Source: Algisphaera agarilytica
GTDB taxonomy: Bacteria > Planctomycetota > Phycisphaerae > Phycisphaerales > Phycisphaeraceae
Assembly: GCF_014207595.1 (NCBI RefSeq)
Contig: NZ_JACHGY010000001.1
Coordinates: 3,292,836 to 3,356,835, forward strand
Length of the DNA stretch: 64,000 nt
Reading direction: 5' to 3'
A program made the translations under genes and the position numbers. Within the stretch, counting starts at the first letter, position 1, and each line of letters begins with the position of its first letter. This document shows, one piece after another, positions 37,356 to 59,440 of the stretch. A model generated the notes under the pieces. The model was not told the origin of the DNA. It searched no databases and saw only the letters and a program-made list of their open reading frames with translations.

Positions 37356-37363
37356 TTAATCCG

Positions 37364-37413
37364 TTAGCCCTGGGCTCTGCCCAGGGACGTCCCCGGGCAA
37401 AGCCCAGGGCTAA
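37364..37413 (+). repeat. nested hairpin between rplW and rplB
   Basis: TTAGCCCTGGGCT (37364-37376) is perfectly complementary to 37401-37413, with a second TGCCC/GGGCA stem inside. It occupies nearly the whole gap and starts 9 bases after the rplW stop. It begins with TTAGCC, like the hairpins in later gaps of this operon. Confidence 0.7.
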
Positions 37414-38649: not shown

Positions 38650-38670
38650 GCCGCTTGCGGCTTAGCCACG
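38650..38670 (+). repeat. GCCGC-TT-GCGGC hairpin before rplV, copy 1
   Basis: A GCCGC/GCGGC stem with two-base turn followed by TTAGCCACG. The same 21 bases recur with one change before rplQ (50904-50924). Confidence 0.65.
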
Positions 38671-39040: not shown

Positions 39041-39069
39041 GTTTAGCCGTCGATCGCAGATCGACGCTC
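39041..39069 (+). repeat. TTTAGCC hairpin, copy before rpsC
   Basis: GTTTAGC, then the perfect 8-bp stem CGTCGATC/GATCGACG (39048-39055, 39059-39066) closed by loop GCA, then CTC. It lies in the 80-base gap between rplV and rpsC. Confidence 0.85.
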
Positions 39070-39090
39070 CCGAAACGAAAGAGACCCACC

Positions 39091-39821: not shown

Positions 39822-39850
39822 GTTTAGTCGTCGATCATTGATCGACGCTC
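39822..39850 (+). repeat. TTTAGCC hairpin, copy before rplP
   Basis: GTTTAGT, stem CGTCGATC/GATCGACG (39829-39836, 39840-39847), loop ATT, then CTC. It lies in the 68-base gap between rpsC and rplP. Confidence 0.85.
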
Positions 39851-39866
39851 CCAACGGAGCAACCCG

Positions 39867-40903: not shown

Positions 40904-40932
40904 GTTTAGCCGTCGATCGACGATCGACGCTC
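40904..40932 (+). repeat. TTTAGCC hairpin, copy before rplN
   Basis: GTTTAGC, stem CGTCGATC/GATCGACG (40911-40918, 40922-40929), loop GAC, then CTC. It fills most of the 70-base gap between rpsQ and rplN. Confidence 0.85.
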
Positions 40933-40961
40933 TCCCCGGCAAGACCGGCAGGAAGTAAGTC

Positions 40962-41738: not shown

Positions 41739-41767
41739 GTTTAGCCGTCGATCGTTGATCGACGCTC
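41739..41767 (+). repeat. TTTAGCC hairpin, copy before rplE
   Basis: GTTTAGC, stem CGTCGATC/GATCGACG (41746-41753, 41757-41764), loop GTT, then CTC. It lies in the 58-base gap between rplX and rplE. Confidence 0.85.
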
Positions 41768-41786
41768 TCAAGAAAGAGAACACACC

Positions 41787-42736: not shown

Positions 42737-42765
42737 GTTTAGCCGTCGGCCAATGACCGACGCAT
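42737..42765 (+). repeat. TTTAGCC hairpin, diverged copy before rpsH
   Basis: GTTTAGC, then CGTCGG and CCGACG arms (42744-42749, 42757-42762) around CCAATGAC. Compared with the other copies, the stem A-T pair has become G-C on both sides. Confidence 0.75.
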
Positions 42766-42788
42766 CCCTCAGAACGAGAAGAACAAGT

Positions 42789-49048: not shown

Positions 49049-49093
49049 CACAACGTGTTACTCGACGCGCACGCGTCGGGTTGCAACGCAACC

Positions 49094-49122
49094 CGTTAAC
49101 CGTCGATCTTGAATCAACGCTC
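49094..49122 (+). repeat. TTTAGCC-type hairpin, degenerate copy before rpsK
   Basis: CGTTAAC then CGTCGATC, TT and GAATCAACG, then CTC: the TTTAGCC hairpin with a weakened stem. It precedes the second structured element in the same gap. Confidence 0.6.
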
Positions 49123-49163
49123 TTCACACTAGTACCAACTCCCGCACGACCCACCTCGTGCCA

Positions 49164-57000: not shown

Positions 57001-57870
57001 ATGGGTCGCAGACAAGGACGGACGCCGCCTTACGAAATCATGCAGAACGTGGGAAGCGGTACGCCGTTGCCCCGTTCGGGCGTGAGACGTGTGCGTGGCG
57101 GGAGCGTCGGCTTGCTGGGATTAACCTGGGGAGGGATCAAGTCCATCGGCGGGTGGTTTGCGGGATTGGGCGGTTTTATCGCCGATTTCCGAGGTTTTTC
57201 GTCCATTTCTGAGCGATTTGGAGGGGGACGGGGCACAAATACGGTTGAAGTCCGCCTCCCGTGGCCGGTGCTGGTGCTGCTGGGTGTGGTGGGGCTGGCG
57301 GCGATGGGCTTGATGTTCCAGATCGGGCACCACGTGGCGGGGCGGTCGGCGGTGCCGGCCGAACAGCAACAGGCTTCGGCGCAAGACGAGCAACAGCAGG
57401 CACTTGCTGTGGAATCAACGATCGAGGGTGGCATGAACCAGGCCGAATCCCTCGGGCCGGTGGTCGAGATGGGCTCGGCCCCCGTTGAGCCGGTTCAGCC
57501 GCTGGGTGGGGCCAAGGCCCAGGACCCGCGTCTGAAGGGCTTGAACTACTTCGTCCTGGCGACGGTGCGTCCCAGCGAGGTCACCAGTGAGGTCAACGGG
57601 ATCTGGGCGCTCCAGGAGTTTCTCGCGGAGCACGGGGTTGCAACTTTTCTCGATAGTACTAATAATGATGCGTTCCGCGTGCTGGTGGATGTCTCACGCG
57701 GATACACCGCCGAAGAAGTGCGGAACGTGGCCTACGCCGAGCACGAACACTACCTCCGGTCCTTGGGCCGTGAGTGGAAGAAACTGCAAGGCGGCATCGG
57801 CACCGATCTGAGTGACATCTACCGGGACCGCTACGAAGGCGGCCCTTCGACCCCAACCGACCCCCAATAA
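57001..57870 (+). CDS. membrane protein with C-terminal SPOR-like domain, unknown
   Basis: A 289-residue protein. The N-terminus (MGRRQGRTPPYEIMQN) is basic and Gly/Arg-rich, followed by one membrane helix around residues 84-104 (VLVLLGVVGLAAMGLMFQIG), a Gln/Ala-rich and Glu/Pro-rich linker, and a globular C-terminal domain from about 175 (KGLNYFVLATVRPSEVTSEV, FLAEHGVATFLDS, FRVLVDVSRGY) that looks like a SPOR-type fold. A link to peptidoglycan or division is possible but not proven. The start at 57001 is chosen over 56923 because the upstream residues look non-coding. It precedes the PVC small basic protein. Confidence 0.72.
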   Translation: MGRRQGRTPPYEIMQNVGSGTPLPRSGVRRVRGGSVGLLGLTWGGIKSIGGWFAGLGGFIADFRGFSSISERFGGGRGTNTVEVRLPWPVLVLLGVVGLAAMGLMFQIGHHVAGRSAVPAEQQQASAQDEQQQALAVESTIEGGMNQAESLGPVVEMGSAPVEPVQPLGGAKAQDPRLKGLNYFVLATVRPSEVTSEVNGIWALQEFLAEHGVATFLDSTNNDAFRVLVDVSRGYTAEEVRNVAYAEHEHYLRSLGREWKKLQGGIGTDLSDIYRDRYEGGPSTPTDPQ

Positions 57871-57893
57871 ACCCTCTTCACTGAGAAACCATC

Positions 57894-58094
57894 ATGAGCC
57901 TCGATGCATCCCTGAAATCCGGCGGCGGCCTCTCGCGTCACCGCAACGTCCTGACCCGTGCCGAGCGTATCGCCAAGCTGGCCGAGAACGGCGAGTTCGA
58001 TACCGAGCAAGACAACCCGCTGGGTATCCGCAAGGTCGGCAACCGCAAGCTGGTCACCGGCAAGAGCTCGAAGAAGAAGAAAGAAGCGGAGTAA
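57894..58094 (+). CDS. small basic protein unique to the PVC superphylum
   Basis: A 66-residue protein of the family conserved in Planctomycetes, Verrucomicrobia, Lentisphaerae and Chlamydiae (TIGR04137 type): SLDASLKSGGGLSRHRNVLT, RAERIAKLAENGEF, and a Lys-rich C-terminus (SSKKKKEAE). It is thought to be nucleic-acid-binding and linked to ribosomes, and it is a strong taxonomic marker. Preceded by an unusual start context (CATC before ATG). Cotranscribed with the SPOR-like gene 23 bases upstream. Confidence 0.9.
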   Translation: MSLDASLKSGGGLSRHRNVLTRAERIAKLAENGEFDTEQDNPLGIRKVGNRKLVTGKSSKKKKEAE

Positions 58095-58163
58095 TTCCGC
58101 TCGGCTGGTCTGCCATACGGTTCGGCTAGCGCTCTTTCTCAATGCTCGACGAAAACGAATTGG

Positions 58164-58195
58164 CCCACCCGGTGTTTACGGGTGGGTTATTCTTT
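58164..58195 (+). terminator. intrinsic terminator after the small basic protein gene
   Basis: CCCACCCG (58164-58171) pairs with CGGGTGGG (58179-58186) over a 7-base loop, followed by TTATTCTTTG. Confidence 0.6.
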
Positions 58196-58208
58196 GGTTG
58201 ATTTGTAA

Positions 58209-58237
58209 CGCGGCGATTCAAGATCGCCGGCTAACGG
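58209..58237 (-). repeat. TTTAGCC-type hairpin outside the ribosomal operon, minus strand
   Basis: Read on the minus strand: CCGTTAGC, then CGGCGAT, loop CTTGA and ATCGCCG. It matches the ribosomal-operon hairpins with a T-A pair exchanged for G-C on both sides. It lies between the small basic protein terminator and the aminotransferase. Confidence 0.65.
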
Positions 58238-58285
58238 GTAAATCGTGACACCGGTTTTACCTATCTGTTTGAATTGGATCACACG

Positions 58286-59440
58286 ATGCTTAACCCTGAT
58301 CGCTTCATCACCGACCGACTCCGCGCTATCGACGCCTCGGGCATCCGACGCGTCTTCGACTTGGCCGCACAGCTCGAGGACCCGATCAATCTGTCGATCG
58401 GTCAGCCCGATTTCGACGTGCCCGAGCCGATCAAGAAGGCGGCGGCGGACGCGATCGATCAGGGGTTCAACCGCTACACGCAGACCCAGGGCATCGCCGA
58501 CCTGCGGGCCAAGCTCACCGCGGACCTCTCTGCCGAGTTCCCCGAGACTCTGGGCCAGGCGCTCACCTCCGGCGACGCGTCGCTGCTGATCACCTCCGGC
58601 GTGTCCGGCGGGTTGATGCTGGCGATGATGACCTGCGTCGGCCCGGGCGACGAGGTACTGATCCCCGACCCGTACTTCGTGATGTACAAGCACCTGGTCA
58701 CGCTGGCGGGCGCGACGCCGGTGTTTGTCGATACCTACCCCGATTTCCAGGTGACGCCCGAGCGGCTGGCCGAGAAGGTGACCGAGCGGACGAAGCTGGT
58801 GCTGTTCAACACGCCGAGCAACCCGACGGGCGTGATGGCAACGGCGGAGATCTGCGAGGCGGTGACGCAGTTCTGCGCCGAGCGTGAGCTGCTGCTGCTC
58901 AGCGACGAGATCTACGACGTGTTCCAGTACACCAGCGACGCGACCATGCCTTCGCCGGTGCGTTCCTCGGCGGATGCGCTGCTGATGCGTGGCTTCTCGA
59001 AGACCTACGGCATGACCGGTTGGCGGTTGGGATATGTCGCGGGGCCGACGCCGATCGTGGAGCAGATGACCAAGCTGCAGCAGTACAGCTTCGTGTGTGC
59101 GCCGTCGATGACGCAGCTCGCGGGGACCCTGGCGCTGGATGTGGACATGAGCGAGCACGTCGCGGCGTATGCCCGCAAGCGTGACCGTGTGGTTGAGGTG
59201 CTCAGCCCGCACTTCGAGCTCGCCGTCCCCGGCGGGGCGTTCTACGCCTTCCCCAAGGTGCCCGAGCACCTGGGCTTGACCGGCACGCAGTTCGTCGAAG
59301 CCGCGGTCGCCCGGAACCTGCTCATCATCCCCGGCAACGTGTTTTCGCAACACGACACCCACTTCCGTTTGAGTTACGCCTGCGACGACGCGACCCTGGA
59401 ACGGGGGTTGGAGATCCTGGTGGAGTTGGCGAAGACTTAA
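58286..59440 (+). CDS. class I/II aminotransferase (PLP)
   Basis: A 384-residue fold-type I aminotransferase. The PLP Lys is in GFSKTYGMTGWRLGYVAGP; FNTPSNPTGV and SDEIYDVF are standard contacts, and the C-terminal FRLSYACDD carries the substrate carboxylate Arg. The sequence is closest in style to aspartate/tyrosine-type and MalY/LL-DAP-type aminotransferases; the true substrate is not clear. ATG at 58286 is preferred to the TTG at 58274. Confidence 0.88.
   Translation: MLNPDRFITDRLRAIDASGIRRVFDLAAQLEDPINLSIGQPDFDVPEPIKKAAADAIDQGFNRYTQTQGIADLRAKLTADLSAEFPETLGQALTSGDASLLITSGVSGGLMLAMMTCVGPGDEVLIPDPYFVMYKHLVTLAGATPVFVDTYPDFQVTPERLAEKVTERTKLVLFNTPSNPTGVMATAEICEAVTQFCAERELLLLSDEIYDVFQYTSDATMPSPVRSSADALLMRGFSKTYGMTGWRLGYVAGPTPIVEQMTKLQQYSFVCAPSMTQLAGTLALDVDMSEHVAAYARKRDRVVEVLSPHFELAVPGGAFYAFPKVPEHLGLTGTQFVEAAVARNLLIIPGNVFSQHDTHFRLSYACDDATLERGLEILVELAKT

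Follow-up and report, generated by a model that had tools for sequence, protein, structure and literature searches.

A short inverted repeat on the minus strand of the Algisphaera agarilytica genome, placed between a small-protein gene and an aminotransferase gene, had been likened to hairpins in the gaps of a ribosomal operon, and it raises the question of what kind of element it is. We analysed it within a 64,000-nucleotide stretch of contig NZ_JACHGY010000001.1 (hereafter the window) and against the rest of the genome and related genomes; the features discussed are collected in Table 1. With a probability of roughly 0.8, we read 58206-58236 as a diverged REP that stands alone, from a family whose foot is GTTTAGC and whose stem is based on GATC...GATC; copies of this family would have spread through intergenic DNA by the action of a RAYT transposase.

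Table 1 Features of the window discussed in the text (window coordinates)
Feature	Position	Strand	Basis or remark
Diverged REP-like copy (the element under study): foot CGTTAGC, stem-loop, CGTTA	58206..58236	-	17.2 bits, model without window copies
5' stem arm CGGCGAT	58223..58229	-	sequence, fold
Loop CTTGA, 5 nt	58218-58222	-	sequence, fold
3' stem arm ATCGCCG	58211..58217	-	sequence, fold
Upstream gene, small basic protein TIGR04137, 66 aa	57894..58094	+	family match
Terminator-like hairpin after upstream gene, before the REP	58161..58189	+	terminator scan
Downstream gene, aminotransferase	58286..59440	+	many aminotransferase models match, none of the 25 shown above cut-off
REP copy before rpsC, GTTTAGC CGTCGATC GCA GATCGACG CTC	39041..39071	+	48.1 bits, R2
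REP copy after rpsC, GTTTAGT variant	39822..39852	+	33.3 bits, R2
REP copy, ribosomal gap	40904..40934	+	39.1 bits, R2
REP copy, ribosomal gap	41739..41769	+	42.6 bits, R2
Diverged REP copy, ribosomal gap; both sides of inner stem altered	42737..42767	+	17.1 bits, R2
Relative of the 58209 copy in letters (4/27 mismatches)	49093..49124	+	no stable fold; missed by R2
Inverted doublet with CCTGGGC stems; other family sharing the TTAGC foot	37363..37413	.	sequence

Read from 58237 to 58206, the minus strand consists of CCGTTAGC, CGGCGAT, CTTGA, ATCGCCG and CGTTA, with 58229-58223 paired to 58217-58211 in a stem of 7 bp. Folded as single-stranded DNA, the hairpin reached -8.2 kcal/mol (z -2.5), and 5 of 200 shuffled sequences folded equally well. 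Letters and fold are as the earlier note had stated for a minus-strand hairpin with a short loop, and the exchange of a T-A for a G-C pair that it reported relative to the ribosomal copies is real (CGTCGATC against CGGCGAT). The copy has the foot CGTTAGC where the family has GTTTAGC, its loop differs as well, and it stands as a singlet with no partner repeat adjoining.

We compared the 27-mer at 58209 with the rest of the window without gaps. Its nearest relative was the site at 49093, with 4 mismatches, against best distances of 6-10 in 60 simulated windows, whereas the four listed ribosomal copies lay 7-9 mismatches away, a distance reached by chance in the simulations. A resemblance to both the ribosomal hairpin and a degenerate copy at 49094 had been claimed; the likeness to the family goes beyond chance, but the element is not a close copy of the ribosomal hairpin. 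The site at 49094 is alike in letters yet forms no stable hairpin (-1.3 kcal/mol, z 0.37), for which it was rejected as one. The bare word TTAGCC was not enriched in the window (15 occurrences against 10.6 expected, a number reached in 13 of 100 shuffles).

Two models of the family were used. R1, made from seven window copies including 58209 itself, found further copies across the genome; the 38.4 bits that it assigned to 58209 were set aside because R1 had been trained on that site. R2 was built from 34 copies, none of them from the window, and, with gaps allowed, gave 58209 a score of 17.2 bits; the E-value was 0.056 for the window and 3.67 for the whole genome, where such a score would not suffice by itself. 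The site at 49094 was absent from the matches of R2 in the window. Across the genome, R2 returned at least 44 places scoring no less than 32.7 bits, among them its 34 training rows and four window sites. Of 2990 and 7439 candidates in the two model searches of this genome, 150 each were scored, and the counts are thus lower bounds.

Such a score would suit a chance hairpin with a chance likeness, in a genome that does hold a REP family of which 58206-58236 is no member; the ungapped distance to the ribosomal copies, the foot short of one T and the other loop point the same way. Against this reading, the pattern CCGTTAGCCGGCGATNNNNNATCGCCG, taken from 58209, found 19 matches genome-wide at up to 3 mismatches, compared with 1 for the reversed control. 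Two were exact at all 22 fixed positions, namely the 58209 site and 344131-344157 on the minus strand, a twin in a convergent gap that differs from the 58209 hairpin at two loop bases only. GTTTAGC stands in all of the remaining 17, of which three have 2 mismatches. Together with the closeness to 49093, which no simulated window equalled, these matches make a coincidence unlikely. As judged by sequence comparison, the likeness of 58209 to the family exceeds chance, yet the copy is diverged.

The position of the hairpin between two genes, 50 nt ahead of the aminotransferase start and antisense to that gene, together with its good fold, also suggests a local control hairpin of one of the two genes, either a terminator or a 5' UTR element. 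The intrinsic terminator scan, however, called 58161-58189 and not 58206-58236, and visual inspection of 8 relatives showed a hairpin similar to the called one, with a T run, in 7. All 8 of these relatives, drawn from 46 others having the aminotransferase gene, have the small-protein gene ahead of it, and in none of them was the repeat seen by eye before the aminotransferase gene; one of the genomes, G016, has two GCTAAAC strings there without this hairpin. The near-identical sequence at 344131-344157 lies in a convergent gap. A search of 57850-58450 found no sigma-70-like promoter. A known RNA family was ruled out as the identity of the hairpin, no Rfam family matching above threshold in 36800-59000 or at E <= 1 in 58100-58350. 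On these data, a local control function is very unlikely.

The family itself is dispersed throughout the genome. The pattern GTTTAGCNNNNGATCNNNGATC, with up to 2 mismatches, had 57 matches (29 on the plus and 28 on the minus strand) against 2 for the reversed pattern, and 38 exact matches against none in the control. We chose 50 copies by hand from both model searches, the GTTTAGCNNNNGATCNNNGATC matches and the window, omitting weak model matches and 11 matches with two mismatches (at 323006, 434179, 1017211, 1065251, 1425688, 1504504, 2259819, 2862000, 2866552, 2956992 and 2960911). Genes were called with a codon-score script, and a copy was counted as outside a gene if it overlapped by no more than 6 nt. 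By this measure, 0 of the 50 overlapped a called open reading frame, compared with 85.5% of random 28-mers in a control limited to the window. Tandem gaps contained 20 copies oriented with the genes and 8 oriented against them (58209 included); 16 copies lay in convergent gaps, 5 in divergent gaps and 1 at an edge, while intergenic random 28-mers of the window fell into tandem, divergent and convergent gaps at 69%, 21% and 10%.

Among the copies from both model searches and the GTTTAGCNNNNGATCNNNGATC matches, there were ten inverted doublets with feet pointing outward and 64-96 nt from foot to foot, where 0.01 were expected. All 34 rows of the alignment carry the GTTTAGC foot, a foot that the searches choosing the rows favour. 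Of the stem cells of these 34 copies, 33 of them distinct and none located in the window, 97.4% were paired, and the stem covaries: 14 cells were changed on both sides, against 2.6 after shuffling, a number reached in 0 of 500 shuffles. The three outer pairs hold this signal because the search had fixed GATC. Other measures of covariation were weak, both for pairs with changes on both sides (3 against 1.6; 18 of 500 shuffles) and for further pair types (4 against 3.1; 170 of 500).

Short palindromes in many copies outside genes, and inverted doublets, are traits of REPs and REPINs that this family displays; the foot expected of them, GTAG or GTGG, was not found, the family foot being GTTTAGC. 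The earlier note had described a dispersed, REP-like repeat present in both orientations, and this description holds. It had also named the outcome that would speak against it, a lack of copies beyond ribosomal operons; this did not occur, most of the examined copies lying elsewhere. Other hairpins were noticed alongside. A sister family, GTTTAGCGGGCGACGC-GAA-GCGTCCCGCG, has the same foot and another stem, with some copies in doublets (on G000:C1, the contig of the window's genome, at 3438681, 630256, 1601053, 2858009, 1685112, 2848370, 3856379 and others). A GCCGCTTGCGGC hairpin, perhaps of another repeat family, lies next to TTAGCC at 38650-38668 of the window and also beside the copy at 2306805.

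We then consider the ribosomal operon, where four strong copies lie within 2.7 kb, all in gene direction, and the genome average predicts 0.03. This clustering would be expected of a ribosomal RNA element serving in processing, stabilisation or attenuation, with 58209 as a stray copy. Most examined copies, however, lie elsewhere and in both orientations. The GTTTAGC-GATC hairpin was not found around rpsC in seven relatives (G011, G022, G023, G024, G025, G002 and G003), five of which carry the GTTTAGC family elsewhere; the regions of G025, G002 and G003 stop at a contig end 4-6 kb past rpsC. In these regions, G011, G025, G002 and G003 each have one other TTAGC-footed hairpin, four in all, and none belongs to the GTTTAGC-GATC family. 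Among 46 genomes with rpsC, we read by eye the gaps of the window's genome and 29 relatives: several had repeat-like hairpins of other kinds there, and the ribosomal gaps of congeners showed no hairpin of the GTTTAGC-GATC kind. Since no family hairpin was found around rpsC of the relatives, the ribosomal copies look private to this genome. These observations bear out the earlier suggestion that a purely ribosomal function is weakened, and together with the lack of an Rfam family they make an element of the ribosomal operon very unlikely. The ribosomal copies are probably insertions of one subfamily of the repeat and not an ancestral ribosomal device; their clustering may reflect local movement, copying inside the operon or local tolerance of insertions.

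Of 51 genomes from the bacterium's own family, 11 contained exact GTTTAGCNNNNGATCNNNGATC matches: 38 in the window's genome, 97 in G011, 75 in G022, 54 each in G023 and G025, 33 in G024, 29 in G026, 23 in G027, 37 in G032, 3 in G013 and 1, which may be chance, in G001. Two congeners, G002 (91% complete) and G003 (78%), had no exact match. This patchy distribution agrees with gain by transfer, or with loss. In G011, five copies of the repeat stand in tandem at a spacing of 117 bp (G011:C43:17634-18123).

A search for a companion RAYT-type transposase had been proposed. NF047646 finds five RAYT-like genes in the window's genome, two scoring above its cut-off, and GTTTAGC repeats were not seen in the inspected flanks of any of the five; these genes were accordingly rejected as partners. 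The known copy closest to one of them lies at 314399, about 3 kb from 317416. The two genes above the cut-off, G000:C1:317416 and 666982, are flanked by GTAG-footed hairpins, identified by eye, and ordinary GTAG REPs thus live alongside the GTTTAGC family in the same genome. At another RAYT-like gene, G000:C1:846589, TTTAGCCCCGGGC-type hairpins stand two on each side of the matched domain and resemble the 37363-37413 doublet.

The companion was found in relatives. GTTTAGC repeats lie on both flanks of a RAYT gene in G011 (L117) and G025 (L108), and on one flank in G023 (L107), where the other is cut off 58 nt away by the contig end. The G023 and G025 proteins share 58% and 57% identity with that of G011, and the nearest protein of the window's genome shares 49%. 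All three genomes with a RAYT at 57% identity or more have the repeat, which has a chance of 0.008 given 11 of 51; one of the three is the query's own genome and two share a genus. Nine genomes contain at least 23 exact copies; six of these, including the window's, gave no RAYT at this identity. The window's genome would have received or kept the repeats, but a matching RAYT appears to be missing from it at present.

We characterised the clade of L117 in 13 of its proteins. PF01797 matched all 13 at E <= 0.1, and the core of a Y1 transposase is present: H-x-H, W and Y---NP are invariant in 13 of 13, and in none does Q follow either conserved W. Against solved structures, the profile of the clade matched 4er8 (TnpA_REP) at 4e-6 over 66-188 and the other transposases 2ec2 and 2xm3 at 5.7e-7 and 3.8e-6 over 65-133, TnpA_REP being about equally good. 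For the member L033, the RAYT model gave 59.1 bits and the IS200 model 17.6. The three linked proteins stay below the NF047646 cut-off of 80 bits (L117 56.7, L107 62.4 and L108 61.6).

The foot recurs at further RAYT loci. We inspected 80 loci, the best 80 of 274 relatives of this RAYT clade in named genomes, 6 of which have a flank shorter than 250 nt; all but two are planctomycete by title, and those two are titled Vicinamibacteraceae. A TTAGC-footed hairpin lay within 250 nt at 38 of the 80 loci, on both sides at 20, compared with 1 of 80 at 750-1000 nt. Among 120 random five-letter words with two G/C, TTAGC included, the next best foot reached 8 loci and the mean was 1.7. When no foot was prescribed, the letters before perfect hairpins were TTAGC at 28 loci, TTTAG at 24, GTTTA and CGTTT at 23 each, TAGCG at 15 and TGTTT at 13; words off that string reached at most 7 loci, the distant control at most 3, and 35 of the 80 loci had no perfect hairpin nearby. 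The 42 loci without a TTAGC-footed hairpin within 250 nt include some with other feet such as GTTTCGC; this second foot precedes hairpins at several RAYTs of the same clade (L307, L337, L347 and L348). With TTAGC-footed hairpins near 38 of 80 loci, (G)TTTAG(C) takes the place of GTAG as the tag.

Under this one foot, the stems vary between RAYTs. The five RAYTs with GATC stems required 2 changes on the tree against 4.9 after shuffling (0 of 500 as low); they fall in two places of the tree, and two are near relatives. It is an even call whether Planctomycetota have a separate REP system, in which a RAYT clade with the YGFWLPNDPRGSWS motif would read TTTAG in place of GTAG while the stem that follows is free to vary from one transposase to another, and in which the families of the window's genome that share the foot but differ in the stem would be parallel products of this code.

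Compared with known systems, the likeness to the GTAG/GTGG REPs and REPINs with their RAYT (TnpA_REP), as far as these are described in the accessible parts of the sources, includes a short intergenic palindrome, a conserved 5' tag and both orientations (PMC2817692, PMC3116915, PMC8266576, PMC6006769), as well as inverted doublets, a Y1 HUH transposase flanked by copies, and stems that differ between transposases. The tag is what differs, being (G)TTTAG(C) here. According to the accessible text of PMC8266576, the REP/REPIN tag is "most often GTAG" and is crucial for cleavage in E. coli, with other systems tolerating mutations better. In the available portion of PMC6006769, W94 and Q95 are well conserved in the GTAG-associated subclasses 2.2, 2.4, 2.5 and 2.7, whereas in 13 of 13 proteins of the L117 clade the residue following one conserved W is K, R, C, A, I or S and that following the other is A or S, if the W residues are taken as equivalent.

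Two further groups of tagged hairpins are of interest. The accessible part of PMC3733652 reports that Planctomycetes contain both GTAG and CGTC repeats; the latter are likewise short tagged palindromes, but their tag is another one and a dedicated transposase is apparently missing. Class 3 TnpA_Y1, known from Planctomycetes, Acidobacteria and Proteobacteria with the foot CnGA, shares with the present family part of its phylum range, a non-GTAG foot and high-copy hairpins; its signature in the available text is Y----Q, while the L117 clade has Y---NP in 13 of 13, the class 2 form (PMC6006769). A TTTAG tag was not met in the accessible text of the REP literature on Planctomycetes, as searched by matching word starts, which could miss a tag inside a longer sequence; the TTTAGC in the accessible part of PMC2817692 is a portion of a Haemophilus stem.

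By analogy with the GTAG repeats, the RAYT would recognise the 5' tag TTTAG and the hairpin in the single-stranded repeat, and would cut and rejoin it, so that copies enter intergenic DNA in either orientation. The copy at 58209 would have inserted downstream of the small-protein gene's terminator and ahead of the aminotransferase gene, and its foot and loop may have been altered later.

To a REP/RAYT picture that, in the accessible literature, holds GTAG-type tags for RAYT-linked repeats and CnGA for a rarer class, the present data add a tag and a transposase clade. As the same catalytic core occurs with a different tag, the rule of tag recognition would become testable by swaps of residues and bases. 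The hairpins in the ribosomal gaps, in turn, would be explained as insertions instead of a ribosomal device.
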